Positions 40,586 to 62,788 of a DNA stretch of 64,000 nt are shown piece after piece; position 1 is the stretch's first letter, and the number at the start of each line of letters is the position of its first letter. Source of the DNA: Gammaproteobacteria bacterium (GTDB lineage: Bacteria; Pseudomonadota; Gammaproteobacteria; Pseudomonadales; Pseudohongiellaceae); assembly GCA_002711845.1 (NCBI GenBank), contig PASF01000014.1:62001-126000 (forward strand), given 5' to 3'. Under the pieces are notes generated by a model. That model was not told where the DNA came from. It saw nothing but the letters and a program-made list of their open reading frames with translations, and made no database searches. The position numbers and the translations under genes were made by a program.

Positions 40586-40610
40586 TATCTGGCCACCAAC
40601 GCTGCACAAT

Positions 40611-40654: not shown

Positions 40655-40823
40655 AATCGACAACCCGGCACCTTTTTGCGGTGAAGCGAACTTTTAGCTG
40701 GCTTGTCGGTGGCCTTTTGAGGTCTTTATCAATCCTGCCAATATTCCCCATTCCCAGTATTTATGCAGCCTCCAGCGATGCGAACAAGGCCGTATCCGGT
40801 CACCTGGATAAAATGTGTGAACT

Positions 40824-41008
40824 GGTTCAATTTTAATTGCATTGCCCGTTTCAATTGGATACAGTTTGTGTCGATTCCCTGTAGTTCCGGTCAATCTGAA
40901 AGGATGCGAGGCCGGAGTAGTATTGAGTTGCTTGAGTTGTAAAAACACTAAAAAACGCATCTAAGCAGTGCATACGTTTCCAAAAATAATAATCACGGGG
41001 GAATATCC
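40824..41008 (+). promoter_or_regulatory. Duplicated leader of TonB receptor copy 2
   Basis: This segment closely resembles 44615-44779 before copy 3. Shared blocks are ATTGCATTGCCCGTT, CAATT-GATACAGTTT, GATTCCCTG, CCGGAGTAGTA, GAGTTGCTT and AATAATAATCAC before the Shine-Dalgarno. An AATTG/CAATT inverted repeat flanks the block ATTGCCCG. The conserved blocks probably contain the promoter and an operator or a transcribed leader shared by both receptors. No gene lies in 40586-41008. Confidence 0.6.
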
Positions 41009-44000
41009 ATGTCCAAATGGCTTGGTTTCCGAAATAAGACCCTGGTGCTGACCAGTGTGATGTCAGGTGCAGCCTGTCTGCCAGTTTTTGCCCAGGATTC
41101 AGAAGTAGATGTTGAAGAAGTAATAGTCACCGGTTCCTATATCCGTGGCAGCCCTCTGGATGCGCCCTCGCCAGTGACCACTGTTGACAGGGCGTCAATT
41201 GAAGCACAAGGCGCGGCCCAGATCTGGGACGTGATCAAAAACCTCGAAATAAACTCCGGTTCATTCACCAACGAAGGTGCGGGCGAAGGCCAGGCACTGT
41301 CAGGTACCGCCAACGTCAACCTGCGTAACCTGGGTGAGAACTCCACACTGACGCTGATCAATGGCAAGCGCCAGGTATCTGCTGCGACGGTTACCCGAAG
41401 TGGCGGTGAATTTGTTGACATCAATACCATCCCGCTGGTCATGGTTGAGCGCGTTGAAGTGCTCACTGACGGTGGCTCTGCCCTGTATGGGTCGGACGCT
41501 GTGGCAGGTGTGGTCAACGTCATCATGCGCACCCAGTTTGAAGGCCTGGAAGTGTACGGTGATGTGCAGGCGCTGGAAAATGCCACCGATCGCCAGGATA
41601 AAACCGGCAGCGTGATCTGGGGCTGGGCCAGTGACAGCGGCGACACGCATTTTGTATTGTCAGGTGAAATATTCCGACGTGACCCGGTACCCGTCGAGTT
41701 CGGCAATTTCTACGACGAAAACGCCCAGTACACCGGTGTCGTGGGCGGCATGGCGGGTAACATCAGCGCCACCATGGCCAATCCGGCGTTTGGTTCGCGC
41801 ATTAACCCGGCCTACATCAATACCGCACTGACACAGCGTAATATTGCTGAAGGTGGCTCGTCCAACACGGTGCTGACGGATCCGCTGTGTGATGACCTGA
41901 CGTCAGCAGATGGCCGGCCGTTCTTCACCGGCACCCGCACTGACCGTCGTGGTGCCAACAGTGGTACCTGCCGTGAGTTCACCGAAGAGTGGAATTTCAT
42001 GAGTGTGGGCATGGAGCGCGACAGCATCGCTGGCGCCTTTAACCACACCTTTAATGAGAATGCCGAGTTCTATTCGTTCTTCCAGTATTCCGACACCACC
42101 ATCGAACGCTCCGACTCCGGTGCACACGGGTCACGTGGCCCTACCGTGTTCCTGGCAGCACCAGGTTCTCACGCAGGCAACCCTGGCTTCGGTGGCTATG
42201 GCATTGGCATGACCGCAGAACTGGGTTATTACGCCGGCAAGGCTGGGCTGACTCGCCCGACCAGCATCCCGAATGCGCCCAACACGCTCGCCAATGGCGG
42301 TCTGAACGTGCCGTTCTATGCCAGTGTGCAGGACTCCAACACCCCCCGCATGGGCGGTAACACCAATATTACCGAGTCTGAAACGCTCGGTATCCAGGCC
42401 GGTGTCAAAGGCGAGTTTTACGCCTTTAATGATCGCCGTTTCAACTATGACGTGGGTTACTCCTGGAGCGGCACCAGCTTCGAGCAGGAATACCAGACCT
42501 TCCAGCGTGACCGTGCCGAGCTGGCGGTAAACGGTCTGGGTGGTCCCAACTGCACACCTAACGGCATCAGTGACTTCAATTTCCGTGATGAGCCGGGCCC
42601 CTTTGGGGGTGCGATTCCCACCATGTGGAACGTGAGCAACCAGGCGTACTACAAAGGGTACACACAGACCTTCTTCCCGGGTTTTGTATTCACCACCCGT
42701 GAAAGTCTGTCGCTGGCATTGACCAGTAACAACCAGGGCCAGGGTGGCTGCGAGTTCTACAACCCCTTCCTGACGCAGATGACCAATCCGGATCTGGCCA
42801 ACAGCGATGAGCTGATGGCGTGGATGGCGCCGACGGTCAAGCGTGCTGACAAACGCAACAAGCTGGGCGTCATTGACGCGGTTGTGTCGGGTGAGCTGAT
42901 GGAAATGCGTGGGGGCATGGCGCAGTTTGCGGTCGGTGGTCAGTACCGTATGCAGAACAACAAATCCATTGCACCTGCGATGAACCAGCCAGGCCTGGCC
43001 AATGCCATTCTGGAGTGGGGCACCAATGGCGAACCCAATACCACGCATTATGTCAGCAACAACTTCGAGTGCTCTGAGTGTATCTTCAACTACAGCAACG
43101 ACCGCAACGTCTCTGCTGTTTTTGGCGAACTGTCGTTGCCGCTGATTCAGAATGTGGAAACCCAGATAGCACTGCGCTACGAGGATTACGGCGGGAACAT
43201 TGGCAGCGAAGTGACACCCAAGGTGGCGCTGAGCTGGCGTCCGATGGATACGCTGTTGCTGCGTGGCTCCTTCTCGCAGTCCTTCCGCGCGCCCAACGTC
43301 GGTATCGTGGAAGAGGGCCTGGAATCCTCCAGCAACACCTTCCGTGATCCACTGCGTAACCAGGCGGTCCGTGCCGGTCTGGCCGACGTCAGCAATGACA
43401 ACGCGCTGCCCAACTTTACCTATACCCTGGGTGGTCCGGCGCCAGACGTGGGCAATGAGTATGCCGATACCTTCAGTGCCGGGTTTGTCTGGACACCGGC
43501 CGGTCGTCTTGAAGGCCTGAGCCTGACCGCCGATGCCTGGCGTTTTGAGCTGACCGATAAGGTACTGCCGCAGCCCGGTATTTCAGCAATTGCTGACGAA
43601 CTGGCGCTGTTCCAGCAGGCGGCGGCGGACCCTTCAAACTACGTGCTGAACGGGACCATCCCGTCCAGCCGTACTGGCGGATGGGCCAGCCTGGACCAGT
43701 TGACACCTTGTGACCCAAATGCTCTGGCAGCTCAGTTCGGTACCGATCCCAGCACGCAGGGTACACCGGGTGGTGAGACTGGTTTCCGTGATGTACAGCC
43801 AGGCTCACGCCTGGATTGCGTGGTCAATCCGGCGGCCTATCAGATCGAAGGTGTGGTCCGAACCTTTGGCGTGAGCACGGGTTCGCTGACGACCACGCAA
43901 CTGAGCACCATCAACGCCGGCACCATCATCGCTGACGGTATAGACGTGAAGGCCAGTTACGGCTGGACTAATGACCTGGGTCGTTTCCGTCTCGGCCTGG

Positions 44001-44488
44001 ACTACACGCACGTTAATCAGTACACACTGAAGGATGTGCCGGGTCTGGAACTGGGTCTGCTGGAAACCGGCGTGTTTGATGCGGCCGGTACGACCGGTGA
44101 TGGCAACCTGGTGCGTTCATTGCCAGACAACAAGGGCAATATCAGCCTGAGCTGGATGAGCAATGGCAATCACGGTGCTTCCATCATTACGCGGTTCATC
44201 GGTTCGTACAGCGATCTGGCTTACGAAAACACCTTTGCCACCGCCAATGATGAAGTCCGTGCCCTGTTGAGCCGGAAGATTGACAGCTACCAGAGTGTTG
44301 ACCTTCAGTACAACTACACGCATCAGTGGGCCAACCAGGCGTTCGGCACCTCTATTTTCACAGTGGGTGTACTGGATGCGTTTAATGCCGACCTGCCCTA
44401 CCGCGAAGCGGGTGCCATCAACTACGATGCATCGGTGTTTGATGGCCGTGGTCGTCGTTTGTATGCTCGCGCGCTGTTGCAGTTCTGA
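41009..44488 (+). CDS. TonB-dependent receptor, copy 2 of a tandem triplet
   Basis: This 1159-residue paralogue of copies 1 and 3 has signal peptide MSKWLGFRNKTLVLTSVMSG cleaved after VFAQ. A plug starting DVEEVIVTGSYIRGSPLDAP and a barrel ending RRLYARALLQF follow. The plug is almost the same as in copy 1 except for a 3-residue deletion around GEGQALSG. Differences concentrate in loops (for example FNFRDEPGPFGGAIPTMWNV, where copy 1 has a different sequence). Conserved CSECIF (near 688), GPNCTPNG and GGCEFYNPF suggest fixed extracellular disulfides. GGGGGA precedes ATG 41009. It has its own leader and terminator. Confidence 0.93.
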   Translation: MSKWLGFRNKTLVLTSVMSGAACLPVFAQDSEVDVEEVIVTGSYIRGSPLDAPSPVTTVDRASIEAQGAAQIWDVIKNLEINSGSFTNEGAGEGQALSGTANVNLRNLGENSTLTLINGKRQVSAATVTRSGGEFVDINTIPLVMVERVEVLTDGGSALYGSDAVAGVVNVIMRTQFEGLEVYGDVQALENATDRQDKTGSVIWGWASDSGDTHFVLSGEIFRRDPVPVEFGNFYDENAQYTGVVGGMAGNISATMANPAFGSRINPAYINTALTQRNIAEGGSSNTVLTDPLCDDLTSADGRPFFTGTRTDRRGANSGTCREFTEEWNFMSVGMERDSIAGAFNHTFNENAEFYSFFQYSDTTIERSDSGAHGSRGPTVFLAAPGSHAGNPGFGGYGIGMTAELGYYAGKAGLTRPTSIPNAPNTLANGGLNVPFYASVQDSNTPRMGGNTNITESETLGIQAGVKGEFYAFNDRRFNYDVGYSWSGTSFEQEYQTFQRDRAELAVNGLGGPNCTPNGISDFNFRDEPGPFGGAIPTMWNVSNQAYYKGYTQTFFPGFVFTTRESLSLALTSNNQGQGGCEFYNPFLTQMTNPDLANSDELMAWMAPTVKRADKRNKLGVIDAVVSGELMEMRGGMAQFAVGGQYRMQNNKSIAPAMNQPGLANAILEWGTNGEPNTTHYVSNNFECSECIFNYSNDRNVSAVFGELSLPLIQNVETQIALRYEDYGGNIGSEVTPKVALSWRPMDTLLLRGSFSQSFRAPNVGIVEEGLESSSNTFRDPLRNQAVRAGLADVSNDNALPNFTYTLGGPAPDVGNEYADTFSAGFVWTPAGRLEGLSLTADAWRFELTDKVLPQPGISAIADELALFQQAAADPSNYVLNGTIPSSRTGGWASLDQLTPCDPNALAAQFGTDPSTQGTPGGETGFRDVQPGSRLDCVVNPAAYQIEGVVRTFGVSTGSLTTTQLSTINAGTIIADGIDVKASYGWTNDLGRFRLGLDYTHVNQYTLKDVPGLELGLLETGVFDAAGTTGDGNLVRSLPDNKGNISLSWMSNGNHGASIITRFIGSYSDLAYENTFATANDEVRALLSRKIDSYQSVDLQYNYTHQWANQAFGTSIFTVGVLDAFNADLPYREAGAINYDASVFDGRGRRLYARALLQF

Positions 44489-44501
44489 TAGCACGACAGA
44501 T

Positions 44502-44533
44502 AAAAAAGGGCCCCGCTTGCGGGGCTTTTTTTT
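44502..44533 (+). terminator. Terminator after TonB receptor copy 2
   Basis: A GC stem (GCCCC 44510-44514 with GGGGC 44521-44525, extendable by GC pairs into the loop) is followed by eight T, with an A run before it. It starts 14 nt after the stop codon. Confidence 0.88.
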
Positions 44534-44614
44534 GTCTGTGGCAAAGACATTACCTATGGTGATAATGCTTATACTTTTGGTTTATGAGGAGTGAAGATTG
44601 CCGAATTGTGAGCC

Positions 44615-44779
44615 TGTTCAAATTTGATTGCATTGCCCGTTGCAATTAGATACAGTTTTTGCTGATTCCCTGATGTACCGGCAACCCAAGGAAAGCCCGC
44701 CGGAGTAGTAGCGAGTTGCTTTAGCTAATGACGAGTAGAGCAGTACGTTCCTAAAATAATAATCACAGGGGGAATACCC
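44615..44779 (+). promoter_or_regulatory. Duplicated leader of TonB receptor copy 3
   Basis: Homologous to 40824-41008 (see the shared blocks listed there). Here the central block is flanked by ATTGC/GCAAT, and TCAAATTTGA just upstream is a perfect palindrome. The segment ends in AATAATAATCACAGGGGGAA immediately before the copy 3 start. The conserved arrangement with changed bases points to a retained regulatory site. Confidence 0.6.
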
Positions 44780-47700
44780 ATGTCCAAATGGCCTGGTTTC
44801 CGAAGAAAAGCTCTGGTTTTGACTGGAGTCATGTCGAGTGCAGCCTGCCTGCCTGTTCTGGTTCACGCGCAGGACAATCAAGAAGCAGAAGTCGAAGAAG
44901 TTATTGTCACCGGTTCCTATCTGCGCGGCAGCCCGCTGGATGCGCCCTCACCTGTGCAGGTGGTAGACCGGGCGTCCATTGAGGCGCAGGGTGCCGCCCA
45001 GATCTGGGACGTCATCAAAAACCTTGAAGTCAACTCAGGCTCCATCAGTAATGAAGGCGCTGACGGTGGTAATGCCGCGATGGGCAACGTCTCCGGCATG
45101 GCCAACGTCAACCTGCGCAACCTGGGGGAAAACTCCACGCTGACGCTGGTCAATGGCAAGCGCGTGGCGCCAGCTGCCACCACCACGCCTACGGGTGGCG
45201 AATTTGTCGATATCAATACCATCCCGCTGGTCATGGTCGAGCGGCTGGAAGTGCTGACTGACGGCGGCTCGGCGCTGTACGGGTCGGATGCGGTGGCCGG
45301 TGTGGTCAACGTCATTATGCGCACCCAGTTTGAAGGCCTGGAACTGTATGGCGACGTGCAGGCCATCGAAAAAGATCTGGGTAATCAGGATCGCACCCTC
45401 AGTGCCATCTGGGGCTGGTCCAATGACTCGGGTTCCACTCATTTTGTGATTTCCGGCGAAATGTTCCGCCGCGATCCGGTGCCTATTACTGCCGCCCGTT
45501 ATTTTGATGAAAAATCCGAATTCACCGGCACGGTTGGCGGTTTTGGCACGCCCCTGGTTAATGCGGCGTTCGGTTCCAATGTGAATCCGGCGTATTTAAA
45601 TGAAGACGTGCGGGCCCAGGCGATCGCTGAAGGTGGAAACAGTCAGCCCCGTTACACCGATCCATTGTGCTTCAGCCTCACCGCTGCTGACGGTGCGCCT
45701 TATTTTGTCGGCACCCGCACAGCTGACAGAGGGGAGCCCAGCTCAAGCTGCCGTCAGGATACCTTCCAGTGGAGTCTGTTGAATGTGGGGATGGAGCGTG
45801 ACAGTTTGGCGGGCGCCTTTGACCATGCGTTCAGCGATACCGTCGAATTTTATTCTTTTGCCCAGTATTCCAACAGCGATATCGAACGCTCCGACTCCGG
45901 TGCCTATACCAGCCGGGGCCCGACGATGTTCCTGGCCCAGCCGGGCGCGCATCGGGGCAATCCGGCCTGGGGTGGCTATTCCATCGGCCAGCCCATGGAG
46001 CTGGGATACTTTGCACCCGCTATTGGCCTGGCACGTCCCACTGCTGCGGACATTACCAATGCGCCAACCGATATCAGAAACGGCGGCCTGAATGCGCCCA
46101 GCTATGCCAATATGAACATTGGCAGCTCGCCGCGCATGGGAGGCGGCAATCAGGTCAGCCGTACCGAGGCACTTGGCGTCCAGGCCGGTTTCAAAGGTGA
46201 GTTTATCGCCATGGATAACCGCCGATTCAATTATGATGTCAGTTACTCCTGGAGTGGTACCAGTTTTGAACTGGAGTATAAGACCTTCCAGCGTGACCGC
46301 GCACACCTGGCGGCCAATGGTCTGGGGGGGCCCAACTGTACCCCCAATGGCGTGCCGGATTTTGACTTCATCAGCGCCCGTGGTCATATCTCACCGTTCA
46401 TACCGACGGCCTGGGACTTTGTCGGTTCCAGTATGACTCAACTGTTCTTTCCGGGGTTTGTGTTTAATACCTACGAATCGCTGTCATATGCCCTGACCAG
46501 TAACAACCAGGGTAAGGATGGTTGTCAGTTCTACAATCCGTTTCTGACCCGACAGTCGGATCCCAGCCAGGCCAACTCCCAGGAGCTGGTGGACTGGATG
46601 ATGCCGACCATCCGTCGCTCGGACAAACGCAACAAACTGGGCGTGTTTGACGCGGTACTGGCCGGCGAAATGTTCGAAATGGCCGGCGGCATTTCGCAGT
46701 TTGCCGTGGGTGTTCAGCACCGCGAACAGAATGCCAAGTCGATTGCGCCGATCATGAATCAGCCCGGCCTCAATGCCATTGCCGGTTTCGGTGCTGACGG
46801 TGTGCCCAATGATTTCCGCTATGTGTCGAACAATTTTGAATGTTCCGAGTGTATCTTTAACTATGATCACACTCGCAGTACCCGCGCGGCGTTCATGGAG
46901 CTGTCTCTGCCGTTTCTGGATCGAATTGAATCGCAGATCGCGCTGCGTTATGAGGATTACGGCGGGCAGATCGGCGGTGAACTGACGCCCAAGGTGGCCT
47001 TGAGCTGGCGGCCGACGGATGCCTGGCTGTTCCGGGGTTCATTCTCGCAATCCTTCCGTGCCCCCAATATCGGCGTGCAGCTGGAGGGTCTGGAATCCAG
47101 TTCCACCACCTTCCGTGACCCGATCAGCGCGCAGGCGGTGCGGGCGGGCATGGTGCCGCCGACCAATGAGAACGCTGAACCGGAAAGTAGTTACACAGTG
47201 GGCTCCCCGGCGCCAAATATTGGTAACGAATATGCCAATACGTATAGCGCTGGTTTTATCTGGACACCGCAGGGGCGACTGCAGGGGCTGAGTATTAACG
47301 CTGATTTCTGGCGTTTCGAAGTGGAAGATCGCGTCATGCCGCAGCCGGGTATTTCTGCCATCGGTCCGGAGATTGCTGCGTTTGAACTGGCGGCAGCAAA
47401 CCCGGACAACTATGTTTTTAACGGGACCATTTCCAGCAGTCCGTCACCTGCTTACGCTGGCCTTGATCCTTACCAGTCCTGCGACCCGCAGGCCCTGTCG
47501 GCGCAATGGGGTGATGATCCGGAAAACTCCAAGACAGCCGGCGGCCAGGTGATTCCGTTGTCGCGACTCGACTGTGTCGTCGATCCACGCACGTATGTGG
47601 TGGATGGTGTGGTGCGGTCGGCGGGCAGCACGACGGGCGCGCTGGTCACGATCAGCTCGGCCGCTATCAACGCCGGTGAGGTAACAGCGGATGGTGTTGA

Positions 47701-48247
47701 TCTGAAGGCATCCTATTCCTGGGATACCGATCTTGGCCGTATCCGGATTGCGTCGGACTTCACCTACGTCAATCAGTACAAGCTTAGCAATGTGCCTGGG
47801 CTGGAACTGGGGCTGCGCGAAACGGGTATCTTTGATGCGGCCGGCACCACCGGTGATGGTCTACTGGTACGTTCGTTGCCCGATAAAAAGGGCAACCTGA
47901 CGCTCAGTTGGACCACGCCGAGCCTGAAGCACACGTTTACCGTGATCAATCGTTTTGTCGGCTCCTACGACAACCTGGCTTACCAGGATACCTTTGACAA
48001 CGGCAATGACTATGTGCGTTCAATCGTCAATCGCGAGATTGACAGCTATCACAGTGTCGACCTGCAGTACAACTACATGCATGAGTGGGCCAACCCGAAC
48101 CTGGGTACCACCTTGCTGACGGTGGGTGCACACGATGCCTTTAACGCGGATCTTCCGTTCCATTACAGCGGTGCGCTGAATTACGATGCCTATCAGTTTG
48201 ATGGCCGTGGTCGCCGCCTGTATGCGCGGGTGTTGATGCAGTTCTGA
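44780..48247 (+). CDS. TonB-dependent receptor, copy 3 of a tandem triplet
   Basis: This 1155-residue paralogue has signal peptide MSKWPGFRRKALVLTGVMSS, cleavage after LVHAQ. The plug starts EVEEVIVTGSYLRGSPLDAP and the barrel ends RRLYARVLMQF. It shares NFECSECIFNYDH, GPNCTPNG and the GQIGGELTPKVALSWRPTD strand with the others, while loops differ (for example FISARGHISPFIPTAWDF). In several stretches it agrees with copy 1 (SNEGADGGNAAMG) and in others with copy 2 (VVNVIMRTQFEGLE), suggesting recombination between copies. It has its own leader and a long bidirectional terminator. Confidence 0.93.
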   Translation: MSKWPGFRRKALVLTGVMSSAACLPVLVHAQDNQEAEVEEVIVTGSYLRGSPLDAPSPVQVVDRASIEAQGAAQIWDVIKNLEVNSGSISNEGADGGNAAMGNVSGMANVNLRNLGENSTLTLVNGKRVAPAATTTPTGGEFVDINTIPLVMVERLEVLTDGGSALYGSDAVAGVVNVIMRTQFEGLELYGDVQAIEKDLGNQDRTLSAIWGWSNDSGSTHFVISGEMFRRDPVPITAARYFDEKSEFTGTVGGFGTPLVNAAFGSNVNPAYLNEDVRAQAIAEGGNSQPRYTDPLCFSLTAADGAPYFVGTRTADRGEPSSSCRQDTFQWSLLNVGMERDSLAGAFDHAFSDTVEFYSFAQYSNSDIERSDSGAYTSRGPTMFLAQPGAHRGNPAWGGYSIGQPMELGYFAPAIGLARPTAADITNAPTDIRNGGLNAPSYANMNIGSSPRMGGGNQVSRTEALGVQAGFKGEFIAMDNRRFNYDVSYSWSGTSFELEYKTFQRDRAHLAANGLGGPNCTPNGVPDFDFISARGHISPFIPTAWDFVGSSMTQLFFPGFVFNTYESLSYALTSNNQGKDGCQFYNPFLTRQSDPSQANSQELVDWMMPTIRRSDKRNKLGVFDAVLAGEMFEMAGGISQFAVGVQHREQNAKSIAPIMNQPGLNAIAGFGADGVPNDFRYVSNNFECSECIFNYDHTRSTRAAFMELSLPFLDRIESQIALRYEDYGGQIGGELTPKVALSWRPTDAWLFRGSFSQSFRAPNIGVQLEGLESSSTTFRDPISAQAVRAGMVPPTNENAEPESSYTVGSPAPNIGNEYANTYSAGFIWTPQGRLQGLSINADFWRFEVEDRVMPQPGISAIGPEIAAFELAAANPDNYVFNGTISSSPSPAYAGLDPYQSCDPQALSAQWGDDPENSKTAGGQVIPLSRLDCVVDPRTYVVDGVVRSAGSTTGALVTISSAAINAGEVTADGVDLKASYSWDTDLGRIRIASDFTYVNQYKLSNVPGLELGLRETGIFDAAGTTGDGLLVRSLPDKKGNLTLSWTTPSLKHTFTVINRFVGSYDNLAYQDTFDNGNDYVRSIVNREIDSYHSVDLQYNYMHEWANPNLGTTLLTVGAHDAFNADLPFHYSGALNYDAYQFDGRGRRLYARVLMQF

Positions 48248-48338: not shown

Positions 48339-49115
48339 CTAAAACAATTCGTCAGGCACCTCAGGGAGTTTCTCGAAACCCGGGTAGGCAAAGTAGTAAC
48401 CCTGAAACAGATCCACACCTTGACTGGCCAGCCACCGGTACTCTTCTTCGCGTTCCACGCCCTCGGCCAGTATGTCGATATTGAGTTTGCGGCAGGTCAG
48501 AATGACGCCCTGAATGATGGCCTGGCGTGCCGGTTTCATGTCCACCTGATCAATCAGGATACGGTCGATCTTGATGTAGTCAGGCTGGAATTCCGCGAGT
48601 AGGTTCAGACCGGAGTAGCCGGCGCCAAAGTCATCTATCACGGTGGTAAAACCGAGTTTCTTGTAAGTCTCGATAATACTGACCAGGTGAGTTTTCTCGC
48701 GCACTTCCTCGCTTTCGGTCACTTCGAAATGTATTTTTTCCACCGGAAAGCCGAATTCCTTCGCCGCGGCCAGCGTGGTGCGAATGCACAGTTCCGGTCG
48801 ATATACCGCGTTGGGGGTAAAATTGATATTCAGCGCGACCTTGAGGCCCAGTCTGGTGGCCAGTTCTATGGCTCTGACGCGGCAGGTCTGATCAAAATTG
48901 TAGAGGTTGTCGCTGTTGATCTGCTTTTGCACGAAAGCAAAACCCTGCCCCTCCGGGCCCCGCGCCAGCGCCTCATAGGAGACTATTTTGCGCGTACTGG
49001 CACGGACGATAGGCTGAAAGGCGAAACTGAGATCGAACGTATGATGATCATTGTCCCGACAACCGCCGCAGCCAAGGTCATGCGTGTCGGCGTTGTGTAA
49101 CTTGATGCTTTGCAA
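48339..49115 (-). CDS. EAL-domain c-di-GMP phosphodiesterase
   Basis: The single-domain protein has about 258 residues. All EAL residues for catalysis are visible: YEALARGPEG, LNINFTPNA, FEVTESEEV, DDFGAGYSGLNLL, IKIDRILID, LAEGVEREEEYRWL and FQGYYFAYP. It should hydrolyse c-di-GMP to pGpG. The N-terminus before SFAFQPIV carries a Cys/His-rich piece (HDLGCGGCRDNDHHTF) that might bind a metal. TTG 49115 with GAGG 5 nt upstream is the best start. A GTG at 49187 would add 24 residues without a Shine-Dalgarno. Convergent with TonB receptor copy 3. Confidence 0.88.
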   Translation of the reverse strand: MQSIKLHNADTHDLGCGGCRDNDHHTFDLSFAFQPIVRASTRKIVSYEALARGPEGQGFAFVQKQINSDNLYNFDQTCRVRAIELATRLGLKVALNINFTPNAVYRPELCIRTTLAAAKEFGFPVEKIHFEVTESEEVREKTHLVSIIETYKKLGFTTVIDDFGAGYSGLNLLAEFQPDYIKIDRILIDQVDMKPARQAIIQGVILTCRKLNIDILAEGVEREEEYRWLASQGVDLFQGYYFAYPGFEKLPEVPDELF

Positions 49116-49205
49116 TACAACCTCACAATATCCATGTTTTCTATGGCATCTTATCACGCTGAAACTTATTGAGAAAACTGCCAGCACAAATTTGAATTGA
49201 AACCG

Positions 49206-50553: not shown

Positions 50554-50919
50554 ATGCCTACAATCTATATTGCTGATGATGATCCTTTGCTGATCGATTT
50601 GCTCCGATTCCGTCTGGAGCGCAAGTCGTACACCGTCCAGAGTTCAACCGACGGTGAAGAGGCCCTGACCCAGATGCTGGCGTCGCCGCCAGACCTGATT
50701 GTGCTGGACTATCAAATGCCGGTGCGCAACGCCCATGAAATTGTTGAAATCCTCAAACAGCAGCCGAGCTGCCGCGACATTCCTATTCTGGTGCTGGCAT
50801 CACAGTGGCGTGAGGAAGATGTCATCGATGCCCTGCAACAGGGCATTACCGACTATGTGATCAAACCCTTCTCGCCCGATGAATTACTGTTTCGCATCGA
50901 ACGGGCTTTGCGACCATGA
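50554..50919 (+). CDS. Stand-alone response-regulator receiver domain
   Basis: The 121-residue protein is only a CheY-like receiver: acidic pocket DDD (8-10), phospho-acceptor Asp52 in VLDYQMP, Ser83 at the Thr/Ser switch position and Lys104 in IKPF. No DNA-binding output domain follows. It is the first gene of a four-gene operon: its stop overlaps the next start (ATGA at 50916-50919). A cognate kinase is not in the window. It presumably controls the export or glycosyltransferase proteins by protein contact (inference). ATG 50554 is chosen; GTG 50521 would add 11 residues. Confidence 0.9.
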   Translation: MPTIYIADDDPLLIDLLRFRLERKSYTVQSSTDGEEALTQMLASPPDLIVLDYQMPVRNAHEIVEILKQQPSCRDIPILVLASQWREEDVIDALQQGITDYVIKPFSPDELLFRIERALRP

Positions 50920-52334
50920 TAAGACGCGCCAGTAGCAGCATGAGCAGAAGCATGAGCAGAAGCATGAATAGCAGCAAGAGTATCCTGCACATCGTTGCCA
51001 GCCCTTACCGCGGTGCGCTGTCGCTGCTGTTTGCTGCCGTCATCAGCCTGATGTCAGCCGGCCTGCAGGCACAGGACTACGATCAACTGATTCAGCAGGC
51101 GATCACAGAACGAAACGCGGGAGAATTTGCTGCGGCCGAACAAACTCTGCGCACCGCTTATGCAATTCCGCCCGATAAAACCGAGGTATCAACACTGCTG
51201 GCCATGGTGATTGCCTTCCAGGCGCGCTACGAGGAAGCCATCAGCATACTGGAGGATGCCCTTGCGCAAAACCCGGACGACATCGGATTGCGCCTCGGCA
51301 TGGCCAGGATTCGCGCCTATCAGAGCCTGTTTGCAGAAGCGGCGCAATTGGCCGACGCGGTGGCCCAGCGTCACCCTGACAATGTCGAGGCCCTGAATCT
51401 GTCCGGCCGGATAGCGCTGTATCAGCAACGGCCCGGGCAGGCCGTCGAGTATTTTCAGCGAGCAGTCACCCTTGAAGGTGATGATCTGGAAGCCTGGATA
51501 GGTCTGCATGATGCGCGCGCCGCGCAGGGTCGTGACCAGCTCGCTGACGACGCATTGGCCGAGGCCATGCGGCTATCCCCCGACCATATTGATGTGCGGC
51601 TGCGGGTCGAGCGCAACCTGAGTCCGCCGGGTCCGGTTCACGAATGGATTGCCGGTCTCGACAGCAGTCGTTTTCGTAACATCGACCTGAGCCAATGGCG
51701 CGACCACTTTGTGGAATATCGGCGTCAACACAATCTTGACAGTGCTTACTACGTGCGCGCCGAGCACAATAACCGCTTCGACAATCGCGATACCGTGATT
51801 GAGGCGGGCTGGCTCGGGAATCAGCGCGCTGCGTTGCCATGGCAGCTGTCTGCGGCCGTCAGCAGCAGCCCCGATTTCTCCGCGCGGTATCGGCTACGCG
51901 GCGCCGTGACCGCTCGCCTCAACGAAGGCAATGATGTGTTCGGCGCAACCCTGCTGACACCCTCGCTGCAATATGCTGACTACACGACCGGTTCAGTGGC
52001 GCGACTGGGGTTTGATCTGGAGCATTATATCGCCGGCACAGCACTGTGGCTGACGCCTGGTTTGGGTCTGGTGCGCGATGAGGACGGGGATAACTCGGTG
52101 GCCTGGACGCTGGGCATAAACTGGCAGGCCAGCGCCAGGGTGCGAGTCGGCGCCATGCTGGTAGACGGCGTCGAGACTGAAAACCGTATTACCACCGACA
52201 CCCGGTCACGCAGTGCCTATCTGCTCTGGCAGGTGACGCCGGCCGTTGCGTTGCGCTTTAACGTCGGTCGACATGACCGGCGCAATGCCTATTCACGGGA
52301 GAATGCCGGAGTCAGTGTTGCGTTCCGGTACTGA
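50916..52334 (+). CDS. TPR and beta-barrel outer-membrane protein (YaiO-like)
   Basis: The 472-residue protein has a signal peptide whose hydrophobic part is LSLLFAAVISLMSAGLQAQ. TPR repeats follow (about 50-225, for example GEFAAAEQTLRTAYAIPPDK, RYEEAISILEDALAQNPDD, RPGQAVEYFQRAVTLEGDD). The last 240 residues form a beta-barrel ending NAGVSVAFRY with an aromatic C-terminus. The layout of periplasmic TPR plus outer-membrane barrel is shared with polysaccharide export porins such as PgaA and with YaiO. The first 16 residues come from three copies of a 12-nt repeat, so a start at ATG 50964 is also possible. Translationally coupled to the receiver gene. Confidence 0.88.
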   Translation: MIRRASSSMSRSMSRSMNSSKSILHIVASPYRGALSLLFAAVISLMSAGLQAQDYDQLIQQAITERNAGEFAAAEQTLRTAYAIPPDKTEVSTLLAMVIAFQARYEEAISILEDALAQNPDDIGLRLGMARIRAYQSLFAEAAQLADAVAQRHPDNVEALNLSGRIALYQQRPGQAVEYFQRAVTLEGDDLEAWIGLHDARAAQGRDQLADDALAEAMRLSPDHIDVRLRVERNLSPPGPVHEWIAGLDSSRFRNIDLSQWRDHFVEYRRQHNLDSAYYVRAEHNNRFDNRDTVIEAGWLGNQRAALPWQLSAAVSSSPDFSARYRLRGAVTARLNEGNDVFGATLLTPSLQYADYTTGSVARLGFDLEHYIAGTALWLTPGLGLVRDEDGDNSVAWTLGINWQASARVRVGAMLVDGVETENRITTDTRSRSAYLLWQVTPAVALRFNVGRHDRRNAYSRENAGVSVAFRY

Positions 52335-52403
52335 TCTGCACGCAATAGGGGGCTGTGGTCCTGACGCCGCGTCAGCATCGCCACATGGAACCGGAGGCAG
52401 ACA

Positions 52404-53510
52404 ATGTTCCTGCTGGAACTGATCTGGCTGGCCACAGGGGTGCTCGCCGTGTCGGCTATGCTGATATTTTTGGTGCTGGTGATACGTCGCGCGCTGGATG
52501 AACGGGCAGCAAAGCATAACGAGGCGGTCAGACGACTCATTCAGCAAATCCTGTTTCGTTACATGGCCGACGACAGTGTGGCGGATCAATCCGACCTGGA
52601 TAATCTGCTGAGTTTTCGTCGCCGGGACAAACCGGTATTGCGCAAACTGGCCATCGACCTTTTCCATCTGGTGCGAGGCAAAGAAAGGGAACGGCTGACG
52701 CAGTTGCTGAAACGCATTGGCTTCCGGCGTGAGTGTATCAAGGATCTGCGCAATGGCAGCGCGCGGCAACGCCAGCTGGCAGCCGCTGCGCTGCAGATGT
52801 TTGCCGACGTGAAAAGCCGGACAGCGCTGTTGAAGGCACTGGACGACCGGGACCCGGAAACCAGGGTCGCCGCGGCCGACTCGCTGCTTGTGATTGATGC
52901 GTTGCCAGACCTTGATGTCTTAATGGAGAAACTCGATCACTCCGTTACCGCCAGGTCGCGCGATGTACGAACCCTGTTTCGCGATATCGCCAGGCGCTCG
53001 CCGGCATACCTGATTGCCCTGGCCGAGCAAAAGCACTTGGGACTGACGGAAAAACTGCTGATTGCCGACGCCATGGTTGATGCCCGTGACTATCACGTAT
53101 TGCCCGTCCTGCTGGGTTACGCGCGTCACGACGATGCCGAGCTGAGGGCAGCGGCGCTGCGCGCACTGTCGGCCCTGCAGCACCCGGCGGCCGCGGATGT
53201 GGTCAGCAGGGGGCTGCGGGACATGAGCTGGCAGGTACGGGCAGTGGCGGCAAAAGCCGCCGGTCGTATCGGTCTGCAGGAATGCCTGTCACCCCTCAAC
53301 TTTCTGATTGATGACCGCAACTGGTGGGTGCGCTTTCGTGCGGCAGAGGCGCTGTGCAAACTGGGTGATGAGGGTATCGCGGTGCTTCAGGTACGCGCGA
53401 CCTACACCGGTTGCGGTGGCTTTGGTCGGGGCGCCCGAATGGCTGCGCTGATTCTGGATGAAAACGGTCTGCGCCAGTTCGATGACGTGCAGGAGGTTAT
53501 CAATGCTTGA
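52404..53510 (+). CDS. Membrane-anchored HEAT-repeat protein
   Basis: The 368-residue protein has an N-terminal transmembrane helix (LIWLATGVLAVSAMLIFLVL, about 6-27). A helical cytoplasmic or periplasmic domain of HEAT repeats follows from about 120 (RQLAAAALQMFADVKSRTAL, DRDPETRVAAADSLLVIDAL, DDAELRAAALRALSALQHP, SWQVRAVAAKAAGRIGLQE, NWWVRFRAAEALCKLGDEG). HEAT arrays are protein-binding scaffolds. Its stop overlaps the glycosyltransferase start by 8 nt, so both are made together. Likely a scaffold for the synthase at the inner membrane. Confidence 0.87.
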   Translation: MFLLELIWLATGVLAVSAMLIFLVLVIRRALDERAAKHNEAVRRLIQQILFRYMADDSVADQSDLDNLLSFRRRDKPVLRKLAIDLFHLVRGKERERLTQLLKRIGFRRECIKDLRNGSARQRQLAAAALQMFADVKSRTALLKALDDRDPETRVAAADSLLVIDALPDLDVLMEKLDHSVTARSRDVRTLFRDIARRSPAYLIALAEQKHLGLTEKLLIADAMVDARDYHVLPVLLGYARHDDAELRAAALRALSALQHPAAADVVSRGLRDMSWQVRAVAAKAAGRIGLQECLSPLNFLIDDRNWWVRFRAAEALCKLGDEGIAVLQVRATYTGCGGFGRGARMAALILDENGLRQFDDVQEVINA

Positions 53511-54963
53511 GCAGATTGTCAGTGTGCTGCTGCAAGCGCTGAATAACAGCGCCGAGTGGGTGGTCGGCGTTGTCATCGCCGTGGGGCTGGCGCAAAACCT
53601 GGTGGTGCTGGTCCAGCTGCTGATGGCAACGCGGGCGATGAAGCGCGAAGATCAAACGCAGAATCGGGAAACGCTCTGGCACCAGCGCGCGCCGGGGGCG
53701 CCTCCCGTTTCGCTGATTGCCCCGGCTTACAACGAGAGCCTGAATATCGTTGAAAGCACCCGGTCGCTGCTCAGTATCCGCTATCCGCATTTCGAAGTCA
53801 TTGTGGTCAACGATGGCTCGAAAGACGATACCCTGCAAACACTGATCGAACATTTTGATCTGCGACCCAGCTTGCGCGCCTATGACAATCTGACACCGCA
53901 CAAGGCCATCCGGGGTGTGTATCAGTCGCGTCTGTACAACAACCTTGTGGTTGTCGATAAGGAAAACGGGGGCAAGGCTGATGCGCTGAACGTGGGCATC
54001 AATGTGTCACGCAGTCCGATGTTTTGCGCCGTGGATGCAGATTCAATGCTGGAAGCAGATGCATTGTTGCATGCAGTACAGCCGTTTCTGACCAGCCCGA
54101 CCGAGGTCGTCGCCGTGGGCGGCACCATTCGCGTGGCCAACGGTTGTCATATCCGTGGTGGCCGGGTCACCCGCGTCGGGCTCTCCGACAAGCTGGTGCC
54201 GTTATTGCAGACGGTGGAGTATACGCGGGCCTTCCTGATTGCCCGGGTGGCCATGAGTGAACTCAATGTGCTGACCATGATCTCCGGTGCCTTCGGCATT
54301 TTCAGGCGCTCGGCGGTGCTGGCCGCCGGCGGGTATGATGTCAACACGGTCGGGGAGGATTATGAACTGGTCTTGCGCCTGCATCGTTACCATCGCGAAA
54401 ACAATATTCCCTACGATATTGTGTCTGTTGCCGAACCGGTGTGCTGGACCGAAGTGCCTGACAATCTCACGATTCTGTCAAGGCAGCGCAAACGCTGGCA
54501 ACGCGGTGCGCTGGAGACGTTTTTTAAACACCGCAGCATGTTGATGAACCCACGCTATGGCCGGATAGGCACGATTGGCATGCCGTTCTCGCTGCTGATC
54601 GATGTCATCGGTCCGCTGGTGGAAGTGCTGGGTTATGTGTTGGTACCCCTGTTGTGGTTCAGCGGCATGCTGAACCCGGATTTCGCCCTGGCTTTTGTGG
54701 CACTGACGTTTTTCTTTGGCATTTTTGTCAGCGCAGGATCGCTGATACTGGAAGAGGTGGCCTTGATGCGCATACCCAGAGCAAAGGATCTGCTGAAGAT
54801 GATGGGCATCATATTGATTGAAAACTTCGGCTACCGGCAGCTGAATAATATCTGGCGCGCACAGGGCTGGTGGGAGTTTGTCCGCAAGAAAAAGAGTTGG
54901 GGCGAGATGACCCGTTCGGGGCTGGGCAAGACCGATAAATCGCGAAATCCACCCGTCATCTAA
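53503..54963 (+). CDS. Processive family 2 glycosyltransferase
   Basis: The 486-residue inner-membrane enzyme starts at ATG 53503 (AGGAGG upstream) with TM1 (WVVGVVIAVGLAQNLVVLVQ). The catalytic GT-A domain has VVNDGSKDDT, KENGGKADALNVG, the DXD-like VDADSMLE, GEDYELVLRLH and QRKRWQRG (the QxxRW of processive synthases). C-terminal membrane helices lie near 365-400 and 400-430. This is the architecture of PgaC, hyaluronan and cellulose-type synthases that extrude polysaccharide. It closes the operon receiver, TPR-barrel, HEAT, synthase. The sugar cannot be told. Confidence 0.92.
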   Translation: MLEQIVSVLLQALNNSAEWVVGVVIAVGLAQNLVVLVQLLMATRAMKREDQTQNRETLWHQRAPGAPPVSLIAPAYNESLNIVESTRSLLSIRYPHFEVIVVNDGSKDDTLQTLIEHFDLRPSLRAYDNLTPHKAIRGVYQSRLYNNLVVVDKENGGKADALNVGINVSRSPMFCAVDADSMLEADALLHAVQPFLTSPTEVVAVGGTIRVANGCHIRGGRVTRVGLSDKLVPLLQTVEYTRAFLIARVAMSELNVLTMISGAFGIFRRSAVLAAGGYDVNTVGEDYELVLRLHRYHRENNIPYDIVSVAEPVCWTEVPDNLTILSRQRKRWQRGALETFFKHRSMLMNPRYGRIGTIGMPFSLLIDVIGPLVEVLGYVLVPLLWFSGMLNPDFALAFVALTFFFGIFVSAGSLILEEVALMRIPRAKDLLKMMGIILIENFGYRQLNNIWRAQGWWEFVRKKKSWGEMTRSGLGKTDKSRNPPVI

Positions 54964-55518: not shown

Positions 55519-55615
55519 CACCACATGTTGGCATCACTTGCCTGAGGATGTCCATTCTTAACAGCGCCGTCATCATGCTGTCATCGAGCGGCGGTAGTCT
55601 GAAGAACTGTTGCCG

Positions 55616-57451
55616 ATGATCCCATTGAATAGCCTCCAGGCAGTGACTACTCAGATGACAGTTAATGAACAACGGGAAGCGTTGCTTGCCATCATAAGAC
55701 AGGGTGCCGTCACAACGTTATTTCAGCCCATTGTTTCCACCCTCGAAAACCGTGTTATCGGCTATGAGGCGCTGTCCCGCGGCCCCTCCAACAGTCCCTT
55801 GCATTCACCGCTGACACTGTTTGCCACTGCCCGGCATTTCGGGTTGCTGACGGATCTGGAAATCCTGTGCCGCCGCAACGCGGTGCACAGCTTCTGCGGT
55901 GGCGGCTTTGACGGACAGCTGTTTCTCAATGTGTCCCCGGAAAGCCTGCTGGAGCAACAACACTATCCAGGGCGGACGCTGTCAATTCTCCGGCAATACG
56001 GCATCACACCCGATCAGGTTGTTATCGAACTGACCGAACACTCGCCTATCGACAATGTCGGATTGCTGCAGAATGCCTTGCATCACTACCGGGATATGGG
56101 CTTTTCCATTGCGCTGGACGATCTGGGTGCTGGCTATTCGAGCCTGCGTCTGTGGACCGAACTGCAGCCTGAATTCGTGAAAATTGACCGGCATTTTATT
56201 GATGGAATCCACCGTGACCCGATGAAACGTGAATTTGTCGGGTCGATACTCAACATGGCCAAGGCCTCGCGCTCGCATGTCATCGCCGAGGGCATAGAGC
56301 TTGCGGAAGAGTTGCGGGTGCTGGAGAGCATGGGCGTCGACTGGGTGCAGGGGTACTGGCTGGGCCGGCCTGACACGGCGCCGGTTGCCGATGCACAGGG
56401 GCTGCTGGCAAAGCTGAATCTGGAGGAATCTCCCGCCTCGGACCCGGGGCTGCACAGCCTGATCATTGACGTGGCGGGCGTGCACGTCAGTGAGAAAGTC
56501 AGTCAGGTGCTGCAGCGCTTTCAGCAACAGCCCAGCCTCAACAGTCTGGCAGTGCTTGACGACGACAATATGCCTGTTGGCACGGTTCACTGTCACGCAT
56601 TGAGCCAGGCCATGCTGAAACAGTATGCACATGAACTGCATGGCCGCAAACCCATCGGGCATATGATGGACAAGGATTGCCTGGCCGTTGATGTTCAACA
56701 AAGCCTGCAGCGGGTCAGTCGCCTGCTGACCAGTCGGGCGCGGCAGCGCCTGGAAGAAGACTTCATTATTACCCGGGATGGCATGTATTTAGGCCTGGGC
56801 CGGGTCATTGATGTGTTGCGCCAGATTACCGAATTGCAGATCAGGCAGGCACAGTTTGCCAATCCGCTGACCTTGCTGCCTGGCAATATCTCCATACAGG
56901 AATGCCTGGACCGACTTCTGCAGAATCACCTGTCGGCACACCTGTGTTATATCGACCTGGACTCCTTCAAGCCCTTCAATGATGTGTATGGATACGGCAA
57001 GGGAGATGAAGTCCTGCTGGGGCTGGCGCAACTGTTGCGGGAATGTTGTCACCCGGACCAGGACTTTGTCGGGCATATTGGCGGCGACGATTTCATGCTG
57101 GTATTGCGTTGCCAGGACTGGCAGGCGCGCCTGCAGTCACTGAACAACAGTTTTTTGTCGCTGTGCCGGCAACTGTACAAGCCCGAGCATATCGCAGCAG
57201 GGGGATTCCATGCGCCCGATCGGGACGGCGAATGGCGCTGGTATGACCTGCTGAGCCTGTCTGTGGGTGTGCTGGCGTTGCCAGAGGATGCTGACGCTGC
57301 GGTGAATGCCAGCCAGTTGGCTGAGCTGGCATCCCGCAACAAACACGAAGCCAAAAAAATAAAAGGCTTCAGTGTGGTCTGCAACGACCTGGACGAGCTG
57401 TTACATGGTGCCACGCCCGCGCTGAGCGTCGATCCGGCCTGCCTCCAATAA
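55616..57451 (+). CDS. EAL-CBS-GGDEF c-di-GMP protein
   Basis: About 611 residues with reversed domain order. The EAL domain (about 15-255) is intact: YEALSRGP, LFLNVSPES, IELTEHSP, DDLGAGYSSLRLW, VKIDRHFID, IAEGIELAEEL. A CBS pair (about 265-395, ending IITRDGMYLGLGRVIDVLRQ) follows. The C-terminal GGDEF-like domain (about 420-580) has LCYIDLDSFKPFND but the signature reads HIGGDDFMLVL (GGDDF). So it is likely a phosphodiesterase with a sensory or GTP-binding GGDEF and nucleotide-sensing CBS. The start may be ATG 55616 or ATG 55655. Its 3' end overlaps the convergent MFS gene by 51 nt. Confidence 0.9.
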   Translation: MIPLNSLQAVTTQMTVNEQREALLAIIRQGAVTTLFQPIVSTLENRVIGYEALSRGPSNSPLHSPLTLFATARHFGLLTDLEILCRRNAVHSFCGGGFDGQLFLNVSPESLLEQQHYPGRTLSILRQYGITPDQVVIELTEHSPIDNVGLLQNALHHYRDMGFSIALDDLGAGYSSLRLWTELQPEFVKIDRHFIDGIHRDPMKREFVGSILNMAKASRSHVIAEGIELAEELRVLESMGVDWVQGYWLGRPDTAPVADAQGLLAKLNLEESPASDPGLHSLIIDVAGVHVSEKVSQVLQRFQQQPSLNSLAVLDDDNMPVGTVHCHALSQAMLKQYAHELHGRKPIGHMMDKDCLAVDVQQSLQRVSRLLTSRARQRLEEDFIITRDGMYLGLGRVIDVLRQITELQIRQAQFANPLTLLPGNISIQECLDRLLQNHLSAHLCYIDLDSFKPFNDVYGYGKGDEVLLGLAQLLRECCHPDQDFVGHIGGDDFMLVLRCQDWQARLQSLNNSFLSLCRQLYKPEHIAAGGFHAPDRDGEWRWYDLLSLSVGVLALPEDADAAVNASQLAELASRNKHEAKKIKGFSVVCNDLDELLHGATPALSVDPACLQ

Positions 57452-61692: not shown

Positions 61693-62784
61693 TTACCGCA
61701 CGGCCTCAAAGGTGTCGTCGGCGGTGGCAATCACGGCACAGGCGCGTCCCCGACGCTTGGCGTCATACAGCGCATCATCAGCGCGCCGCAGCAGTTGATC
61801 CGAGAACCGCTGGCTGTCCGGCGGCGTCTGGCTGGCGATACCAAAACTGGCGGTGACCTTGAGGCCCTGGCTGAATGCTGTGGCGGCAAAGGCGGCACGC
61901 AGTTTGCTGGTGATGGCCGCTGCCGATTCAGTCGCCGTGCCTGGACAGATGATCAGAAACTCTTCACCGCCCCAGCGCCCGCAGATATCCGTGGCCCGCA
62001 TCTGCCGTGTGAGTACACCGGCGAACTGCTGCAAGACGGCGTCTCCGGTAAGATGACCGTATTCGTCATTAATGTGCTTGAAATGGTCTATATCGCAAAG
62101 CACCAGTGTTAGCGGTTGACCGTTGCTGCGGTGTCGCGCCAGTTCCTGTTGCAGCAGCGTGTCCAGGTGGCTTCTGTTATGCAGCCCGGTCAACTTGTCG
62201 GTGATTGACTGATGCTCAAGTTCGGCGAAGGCTTCCGCGCGCGAGCGCTCATATAGACGGAAGATAAACCACTGTGCAGTGAGCACCTCGACAATATTCA
62301 GCCACGCGCCCAGGGTCACCTCGGCGGCTGGCCAGTCGGGCAGGCGCAGATACACATAGGCGATGACATAGACAAACACCAGACCGCTGAGCCAGGCGCC
62401 GGCGCGCCGGCCCAGCAGAAAAAACGCCACCGGCGGCAATACCGTCACCCAGATGATTGAATAGCTGCGACCTTCGGCCAGGTGAATGAAACTGAGCAGC
62501 ACGGCGATCAGGATGATCACCACCAGCCAGGATGCAATCAACAGTTGCCCGGAACGGTGAAAATACAGCAACGCCAGTGTGACGCCGATGGCGCCGGCGT
62601 AGTCCAGTGCGGCAACGGGATAGGCCGAGAACACGAACACATTGATACTGCCAATCACGGCAAAGTACAGCGTCATGATGATGAGAATGGCGTAAACCAG
62701 TCGACGCTGATGACGAATCGGGCCGCTCAGGGCAGACCTGACGTCACCCGGGGATTGACTGCCTGTGGGGAATGAGTATGCCAT
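61693..62784 (-). CDS. Membrane-bound diguanylate cyclase (GGDEF)
   Basis: The 363-residue protein starts at ATG 62784 (MAYSFPTGSQSPGDVRSALS). Six hydrophobic segments (about 25-180) form a membrane sensor of unknown ligand. A GGDEF domain (about 205-355) follows with LVLCDIDHFKHINDEYGHLT, active site GRWGGEEFLIICPG, and the inhibitory I-site RATD five residues before GGEEF. It should synthesise c-di-GMP with product inhibition. It begins 4 nt after the methyltransferase stop, so they are co-transcribed. Confidence 0.93.
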   Translation of the reverse strand: MAYSFPTGSQSPGDVRSALSGPIRHQRRLVYAILIIMTLYFAVIGSINVFVFSAYPVAALDYAGAIGVTLALLYFHRSGQLLIASWLVVIILIAVLLSFIHLAEGRSYSIIWVTVLPPVAFFLLGRRAGAWLSGLVFVYVIAYVYLRLPDWPAAEVTLGAWLNIVEVLTAQWFIFRLYERSRAEAFAELEHQSITDKLTGLHNRSHLDTLLQQELARHRSNGQPLTLVLCDIDHFKHINDEYGHLTGDAVLQQFAGVLTRQMRATDICGRWGGEEFLIICPGTATESAAAITSKLRAAFAATAFSQGLKVTASFGIASQTPPDSQRFSDQLLRRADDALYDAKRRGRACAVIATADDTFEAVR

Positions 62785-62788
62785 GGCA

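Follow-up and report, generated by a model that had tools for sequence, protein, structure and literature searches.

The window analyzed here is a 64,000-nucleotide stretch of contig PASF01000014.1 (positions 62,001 to 126,000) from a Gammaproteobacteria bacterium, and it contains at 50554-54963 a compact operon of four genes encoding a receiver, a TPR and beta-barrel protein, a HEAT-repeat protein and a membrane glycosyltransferase of the GT2 family. Open reading frames (ORFs) and domain matches place the four genes where the original prediction, made from the sequence alone, had put them, as follows:

50554..50919, + strand: receiver gene, 121 aa, ATG start, PF00072
50916..52334, + strand: TPR and YaiO-type beta-barrel gene, 472 aa, matched by TPR models, TIGR04390 and PF19413
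52404..53510, + strand: HEAT-repeat gene, 368 aa, PF13646
53491..53496, + strand: AGGAGG, a ribosome-binding-site-like sequence for the GT2 gene, within the 3′ end of the HEAT gene, found by sequence inspection
53503..54963, + strand: GT2 glycosyltransferase gene, 486 aa, ATG at 53503, PF13641

An in-frame GTG of the receiver gene lies at 50521. Both gene overlaps that had been predicted are exact, an ATGA overlap between the receiver and TPR-barrel genes (50916-50919) and an 8-nt overlap between the HEAT and GT2 genes (53503-53510), and the TPR-barrel and HEAT genes are separated by a 69-nt gap in which the scan listed no terminator-like site. The operon holds these four genes only, flanked by a major facilitator superfamily (MFS) gene and a DNA-deoxyinosine glycosylase gene, and contains no PilZ, PgaD-like or deacetylase gene, as was claimed. 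The four proteins are 70-86% identical to those of a syntenic copy in the related genome G013, and the ratio of nonsynonymous to synonymous divergence (dN/dS) is 0.07-0.14 for all four genes at a dS of 1.3-1.8; given this low ratio at high dS, all four, including the receiver gene, are under purifying selection. Since the gene order also recurs in distant genomes, the arrangement is more than chance. The operon probably encodes a synthase-dependent exopolysaccharide system of an undescribed type, built on a receiver-HEAT-GT2 core.

Conservation of the locus was assessed with profiles built from the starting loci (five each for receiver, HEAT and GT2, three for YaiO), with gene calls in the loci being mechanical ORFs. 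A collection scan with the five-row GT2 alignment confirmed at least 565 relatives; the 80 loci described below are the best-scoring, and their frequencies are those of the nearest relatives. A HEAT gene lies directly upstream of the GT2 gene in 76 of the 80 loci, and of the four misses three begin at a contig end (L025, L059 and L090) and one (L057) lacks HEAT and carries an N-terminally shortened GT2. In 67 of the 76 a receiver lies upstream of HEAT at a distance of at most 3 kb, and no second HEAT match was found in the HEAT-GT2 loci examined. The loci are not all independent: the 78 with a GT2 of at least 380 aa reduce to 66 at 90% GT2 identity, with HEAT present in 64 of these and both misses (L059, L090) being contig-end loci. 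They span 14 named phyla, several of them by way of metagenome-assembled genomes (MAGs) only and one labelled archaeal. MAG contigs labelled Hydrogenophaga (L025, with a GT2 fragment 78% identical to that of the window) and Klebsiella pneumoniae (L080) also carry members, labels that may result from mis-binning. When the mechanical genes of 85 loci were clustered, the four large families obtained (85, 75, 74 and 60 loci) were those of the four reported genes with signalling proteins; every other family occurred in at most nine loci, and identification was confined to those in at least seven.

The predicted four-gene order recurs in G013, with the same MFS and glycosylase flanks, and in G125 of the same class (receiver-YaiO-HEAT-GT2, 27-52% identity), as well as in distant genomes. 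Receiver-HEAT-GT2 occurs in G340 and G002 and is followed by the barrel gene in G021 (receiver-HEAT-GT2-YaiO). The GT2 family (E 1e-80) is found in 4 of 37 related genomes including this one (G000, G002, G013 and G021), three of the carriers lying among the 15 genomes of the genus, and the four-gene module is therefore accessory. In a plasmid collection the HEAT protein matched four records, three from Mesorhizobium and one from Devosia, which give the genes generic names only, while a search of viral contigs with the GT2 query returned no relative.

As a specificity control, 114 genomes of the class were searched with the PgaC/IcaA model TIGR03937, and flanks of up to about 1.5 kb were fetched. 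Against the GT2 family profile, seven of the 30 listed loci reach 469 bits or more, and all seven adjoin a HEAT gene, two of them being this genome's own copies and one (L127) having HEAT on the opposite strand. The other 23 score below 190 bits and have no HEAT within the fetched flanks, including five above the PgaC cut-off, and six other listed GT2 loci of this genome (L003-L008) have no HEAT either. As far as tested, the HEAT link thus appears to be specific to this GT2 family. A quick maximum-likelihood tree, in which several controls are on long branches, places 57 HEAT-linked GT2s (52 of the 80 loci, the window and four further members) on one side of a branch and 20 others on the opposite side (SH-aLRT 85), the latter being PgaC, YaiP, NfrB and BcsA of E. 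coli together with 16 loci drawn from the low-scoring 23. Within a 28-row group (support 97), the window GT2 forms a pair with the gammaproteobacterial MAG L022. The remaining named members of that group are mainly alphaproteobacterial, a composition that points to possible horizontal gain.

The GT2 protein matches PF13641 with 67.1 bits in the Pfam scan, and its best NCBIfam match is PgaC/IcaA (TIGR03937) at 139.3 bits, short of the equivalog cut-off of 422.3. The domain scan of its 486 residues gave glycosyltransferase matches only and no PilZ match. The predicted QxxRW and DXD motifs are present, here under the names in general use for GT2 catalytic motifs:

54034-54042, + strand: DAD, D178/D180
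54352-54360, + strand: GED, residues 284-286
54484-54498, + strand: QRxRW, residues 328-332

All 83 family members that reach 380 aa share the first catalytic Asp and the DxD, ED and QRxRW positions without exception, and by fold and motifs the window protein carries the DxD and QxxRW of a processive-type membrane synthase. Hydropathy analysis gives about three hydrophobic helices for the window GT2, one N-terminal and two C-terminal, and a single one for the HEAT protein, compared with about five in PgaC and two in PgaD. A structural model of the GT2 (pLDDT 87.2, pTM 0.86; 53-row alignment) has as its top Foldseek match the Chlorella virus hyaluronan synthase (E 4.5e-17), and a second aligner matched it to hyaluronan synthase (Z 28.5 over 388 residues) and BcsA (Z 25.1 over 377 residues), its top Z being to PcManGT, an archaeal mannosyltransferase that functions in N-glycan assembly (Z 32.3, 337 of 345 residues aligned). 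Fold and catalytic motifs suggest a GT2 that uses a nucleotide-sugar donor to build a sugar polymer and passes the chain across the inner membrane. It could instead make a lipid-linked sugar or glycolipid, in the manner of dolichyl- or undecaprenyl-linked GT2s, with the TPR-barrel protein being a porin or assembly factor, as the near-complete alignment to PcManGT would fit; in G002, moreover, genes for a bacterial sugar transferase and a WecG/TagA-type protein come after the core, an arrangement resembling that of lipid-linked pathways. This alternative is quite unlikely, however, given the QRxRW processive-synthase signature in 83 of 83 members, the hyaluronan and cellulose synthase alignments that are longer than that of PcManGT, the recurring deacetylase and hydrolase-like partners, and an exporter candidate whose best whole-architecture match is BcsC and whose gene tracks the outer membrane.

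That exporter candidate, the TPR-barrel protein, scores above the cut-offs of both YaiO families, TIGR04390 (60.5 bits vs. 32) and PF19413 (27.3 bits vs. 23.9), and matches the PgaA equivalog TIGR03939 with 31.4 bits through its TPR part only, below the cut-off of 366.65. Hydropathy analysis locates a hydrophobic signal region at approximately residues 34-52. An AlphaFold2 model of the protein alone (pLDDT 89.4, pTM 0.65) shows TPR helices to residue 234 and about 14 strands from residue 241 (51636-52331), which agrees with the outer-membrane TPR plus barrel protein originally described. Its top Foldseek matches are to the E. coli cellulose exporter BcsC (9b8a, E 2.1e-9; 9b8h, E 1.5e-8), and VIA-align ranked separate TPR and barrel chains, the barrels including FadL-type channels, CymA and OmpG at Z 19-21. 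The barrels of PgaA and BcsC have 16 strands, and those of OmpG and CymA have 14.

Profiles for the barrel, and for the hydrolase-like (A5) and deacetylase (A6) families described below, were built partly from the 80 loci, which favours their detection there. A barrel gene accompanies the core in 36 of 40 Pseudomonadota loci, in none of ten Bacillota loci and in none of six Actinomycetota loci, the last two phyla being monoderm, with a mixed distribution in other diderm phyla (for example 4/6 Fidelibacterota and 1/3 Gemmatimonadota). All 16 monoderm loci, or 13 at 90% GT2 identity, retain HEAT and GT2; the receiver lies upstream in all of them but L072, where it is downstream. Among Pseudomonadota the barrel gene is lacking in the contig-end locus L025, the HEAT-less L057, and L056 and L080. 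Because the barrel gene tracks the outer membrane across phyla, the simplest reading is that the TPR-barrel protein would be the outer-membrane part of the machine and receiver-HEAT-GT2 its core; fold and phyletic pattern together point to a periplasmic and outer-membrane exporter on a BcsC-like plan with a smaller barrel. In Bdellovibrio sp. qaytius (L067:2722-6579) the TPR part and the YaiO barrel are split into two genes that enclose one for a sulfatase-type protein and lie just 5′ of receiver-HEAT-GT2. One Bacillota locus, that of Rossellomorea aquimaris (L084:9374-12607), encodes, between the GT2 and a receiver/hybrid-kinase pair, a 1077-aa protein with no Pfam or NCBIfam match that is possibly a monoderm exporter counterpart or a sensor; similar gaps occur in L079, L085, L086 and L100.

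The HEAT protein matches PF13646 with 72.8 bits (cut-off 27.7) and has a single N-terminal hydrophobic helix by hydropathy (residues 9-27, 52428-52484). Basic residues follow this helix, and the HEAT repeats are accordingly placed, putatively, in the cytoplasm. An N-terminal hydrophobic helix within the first 70 residues is found in 76 of 81 HEAT proteins of at least 280 aa, and the conserved core can be described from its sequences as a receiver, a HEAT protein with one predicted N-terminal helix and a predicted membrane GT2.

The receiver matches PF00072 with 84 bits and has no second domain above its cut-off, in keeping with the prediction of a receiver lacking an output domain. It possesses the phospho-acceptor D52, the acidic pocket D8-D10 and K104, with Ala82 at the Thr/Ser switch position. 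Over 72 clusters the phospho-Asp is present in 71, the Lys in 72 and the Thr/Ser in 68, the exceptions at the last position being the window, G013 and L022 (all Ala) and L083 (Val). With Ala at this position, canonical switching of the receiver in the window lineage is uncertain. The predicted control by receiver phosphorylation needs a correction here: a phosphorylatable receiver is typical of the family, but the switch residue is Ala in the window, G013 and L022.

In other genomes the receiver often forms the end of a longer protein, which in L084 and L068 also contains Hpt, GGDEF and a second receiver; Hpt-REC-REC proteins are encoded in G002 and G021, in the latter with an adjoining histidine kinase gene; a hybrid histidine kinase lies upstream in a Labrys locus (L027); and the Mesorhizobium ciceri and Devosia plasmid copies are surrounded by an ATP-binding sensor-type or PAS protein, extra receivers and an Hpt gene. 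In M. ciceri WSM1271 the copy is MESCI_RS32000-RS32015, with RS31990 as the sensor-type gene and RS32020 as the Hpt gene. Phosphorelay input to the GT2 family clusters appears well supported for the family and is uncertain for the window receiver. In a co-divergence set of 58 of the 72 clusters, from which near-duplicates were dropped, distances correlate between receiver and HEAT (r 0.75) and between HEAT and GT2 (r 0.86), and the partial receiver-HEAT correlation given GT2 is 0.36, a value reached in 0 of 2000 label shuffles. By these distances the receiver, HEAT and GT2 proteins diverge together. It is conceivable, if distinctly improbable, that the receiver is a passenger regulating something else, such as a kinase branch or a diguanylate cyclase, and that HEAT, GT2 and barrel operate without it. 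Such a role would suit the nine of 76 HEAT-GT2 loci with no receiver within 3 kb upstream and the replaced switch residue of the window lineage, however of these nine, two are cut by the contig start (L042, L074) and two have a receiver elsewhere in the locus (L052, L072), while the receiver is in place in 67 of 76, co-diverges with HEAT and GT2, and is under purifying selection in the window (dN/dS 0.08 vs. G013).

Two partner families, the largest in the clustering after those of the four reported genes, accompany the system outside the operon in part of its range. A5 proteins are approximately 525-608 aa, with no Pfam match, signal-like N-termini in some members and a conserved DIEPY motif; a PDB sequence search gave one weak glycoside-hydrolase match (E 1.6e-5). 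A6 proteins (approximately 590-680 aa) are polysaccharide deacetylases (PF01522) whose alignment shows THDVD-, HTVAH- and FRPG-type motifs, presumably those of CE4 enzymes, and a PDB sequence search with A6 gave no match at 0.01. Within the fetched flanks of the 80 loci, A5 occurs in ten and A6 in eight, with both in four of these. A5 is present in exactly the four of 37 related genomes that have the GT2 family, a co-occurrence with a chance of 1 in 66,045 if genomes are independent, three of the four belonging to one genus. The A5-A6 pair is on a contig other than that of the core in G013 and G021 and directly before the core in G002, and the A5 copy of this genome, 608 aa and predicted to be exported, is unlinked to the operon (G000:C11:132190-133563; L139:8161-9987). 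The absence of a deacetylase that the original prediction noted is thus true of the operon and not of the wider system, which in some relatives includes a deacetylase and a hydrolase-like partner. As these two proteins accompany the system in some relatives, they point to an N-acetylated amino-sugar polymer as the putative product.

Another possibility is a divergent Pga system making ordinary poly-N-acetylglucosamine, in which HEAT replaces PgaD and a split deacetylase and hydrolase replace PgaB. PgaC/IcaA is indeed the best NCBIfam match of the GT2 (139 bits), and the deacetylase adjoining a hydrolase-like gene in G002, G013 and G021 parallels PgaB. Both proteins nevertheless score far below their Pga cut-offs (139 vs. 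422 for PgaC, 31 vs. 367 for PgaA), PgaC lies across the branch with SH-aLRT 85, HEAT is missing beside all five true PgaC loci found in the class, and the barrel has approximately 14 strands, making this explanation unlikely. Membership of the GT2 in PgaC itself was rejected on its sub-cut-off score, the HEAT-less true PgaC loci and the tree branch.

Compared with Pga/Hms (PgaABCD), the set shares a membrane GT2 with PgaC/IcaA as its closest family, an outer-membrane TPR and barrel protein and, in some relatives, deacetylase and hydrolase-like proteins. It differs in a GT2 far under the PgaC cut-off and on the opposite side of the tree branch, in having HEAT and a receiver where Pga has PgaD, in a barrel of about 14 strands rather than the 16 of PgaA, and in the lack of a PgaB-like gene in the operon. 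The E. coli Nfr system (NfrB-NfrA-YbcH) likewise combines an inner-membrane QxxRW GT2 with an outer-membrane TPR-barrel protein and, according to the available text of its description, secretes an uncharacterized polymer, with NfrB sensing c-di-GMP (cyclic di-GMP) through a fused MshEN domain (PMC8669469). The nfrBA-ybcH operon, however, has no HEAT or receiver gene, the window GT2 has no MshEN-type match, and the tree sets NfrB, on a very long branch, apart from the HEAT-linked group. Bcs (BcsA-BcsB-BcsC) shares the GT2 fold and the TPR-barrel exporter plan, but the window GT2 has no PilZ and the operon has no BcsB or BcsZ gene, BcsB being without a match among the operon and flank proteins scanned. 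The Xanthomonas xagABCD cluster and the sfz/xag-like stalk clusters also place a GT2 in biofilm or stalk polysaccharide operons outside Pga and Bcs; as far as the available text of these sources goes, Sfz2 is an EpsE-like domain fused to a GT2 beside the BcsB-like Sfz1, and no HEAT protein or lone receiver is mentioned (PMC3609779, PMC8250860, PMC4643136). Identity with xagABCD/sfz was rejected on these different parts, as was identity with EmbRS of Rubrivivax, whose tables, in the text available, list wza, wzx, wzy and kps-type clusters (PMC3684757). In the E. coli row yaiP-yaiX-yaiO a GT2 and a YaiO barrel occur together, but yaiX is broken by IS2, HEAT and receiver are lacking, and YaiP is outside the HEAT-linked group on a long branch. 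At the K-12 locus (L103, 4070-7936) yaiP and yaiO flank the IS2-broken yaiX, possibly a decayed GT2-barrel system.

In agreement with the original prediction, no described system with the same four parts was found among the papers listed in searches of the open-access literature; most subscription papers and preprints fall outside that scope, and the absence is not proven. The set would work like Pga, Bcs and Nfr; as it fails their tested defining features, it appears to be an unreported synthase-dependent type. In the mechanism we propose, the GT2 would polymerize a sugar chain and translocate it across the inner membrane, while the HEAT protein, held by its one-helix anchor, would sit beside the GT2 as a cytoplasmic scaffold and a docking platform for the receiver. 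A phosphorelay of hybrid kinase, Hpt and receiver could switch synthesis on and off through direct receiver contact, the receiver taking the role that c-di-GMP plays with PilZ, PgaD or MshEN in Bcs, Pga and Nfr. The TPR-barrel protein would guide the chain out in diderms, and the hydrolase-like protein and deacetylase, where present, may process the polymer.

Several observations weigh against an exopolysaccharide system of this kind. For the synthase, about three helices are few for a single-chain channel, and the top Z of the GT2 model is to PcManGT. For the exporter, BcsC is not among the 50 VIA-align rows of the TPR-barrel model, and L056 and L080 lack a barrel gene with no evident cut. 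For contact between the parts, no single ORF of the loci scanned hit more than one of the four profiles (receiver, barrel, HEAT and GT2), leaving no natural fusion there in its support, and co-divergence is no proof of contact. For gating, nine HEAT-GT2 loci are without a receiver close upstream, Ala occupies the switch position in the window, G013 and L022, and this genome has one Hpt match only, such that the phosphorelay may be altered or lost here. Among the partners, A6 was not found in this genome and also occurs in G026, which is without the GT2 family, and A5 is found only in this genome among the 114-genome class draw, although five others in an equally large, apparently the same, draw carry a HEAT-linked GT2 (G057, G069, G088, G125 and G128). 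What stands of the synthesis-export machine originally predicted is the compact four-gene module with its conserved order; the neighbouring EAL-CBS-GGDEF gene is not part of it, and the switch residue of the receiver is replaced here.

The system may, more tentatively, represent a phylum-spanning class, shared by monoderms and diderms, in which a phosphorelay receiver directly gates a polymerizing synthase by way of a HEAT adaptor anchored in the membrane. It would have an outer-membrane exporter only where one is needed, a hydrolase-deacetylase pair in some lineages and, in some phyla, a GGDEF domain on the same receiver protein that would bring two signalling currencies to one synthase. The available text of a review of synthase-dependent systems deals with their control by c-di-GMP (PMC8461298). 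A widespread set with a phospho-receiver as its most constant regulator would, if the proposal is correct, indicate that two-component signalling can act on polysaccharide synthesis post-translation, and a core shared by Gram-positive and Gram-negative phyla would amount to a natural experiment that separates the synthesis unit from the export unit. Annotators would gain a recognizable gene set in place of four generic names, and A5 would be a candidate family of matrix-degrading hydrolases without a Pfam match.

Three c-di-GMP proteins had been predicted elsewhere in the window, and domain matches identify all three:

48339-49187: EAL protein
55610-57451: EAL-CBS-GGDEF protein
61744-62205, minus strand: GGDEF match inside ORF 61693-62883

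The genome holds 37 GGDEF matches, duplicates included, so that the nearness of these genes to the operon argues only weakly for a link. The EAL-CBS-GGDEF gene next to the operon is absent from the corresponding place in G013, and a functional tie to it was rejected for this reason. The EAL protein matches RimA, a phosphodiesterase of S6 modification, with 313 bits (below the equivalog cut-off of 430), and the start of a similar ORF adjoins the G013 locus (L016:8116-8502).

Upstream of these genes, at 37106-48247, lie three tandem ORFs of 1155-1159 aa, the first and third of which share about 71% DNA identity over 2.5 kb; the third resembles a TonB-dependent receptor by eye. Contig C14 (138,747 bases) matches the end of the window contig, C6, at 100% in the three stretches tested, one of 19,001 bases from the middle and one of 3,000 from either end, which is either assembly redundancy or a recent large duplication and doubles the locus counts in this genome (G000).

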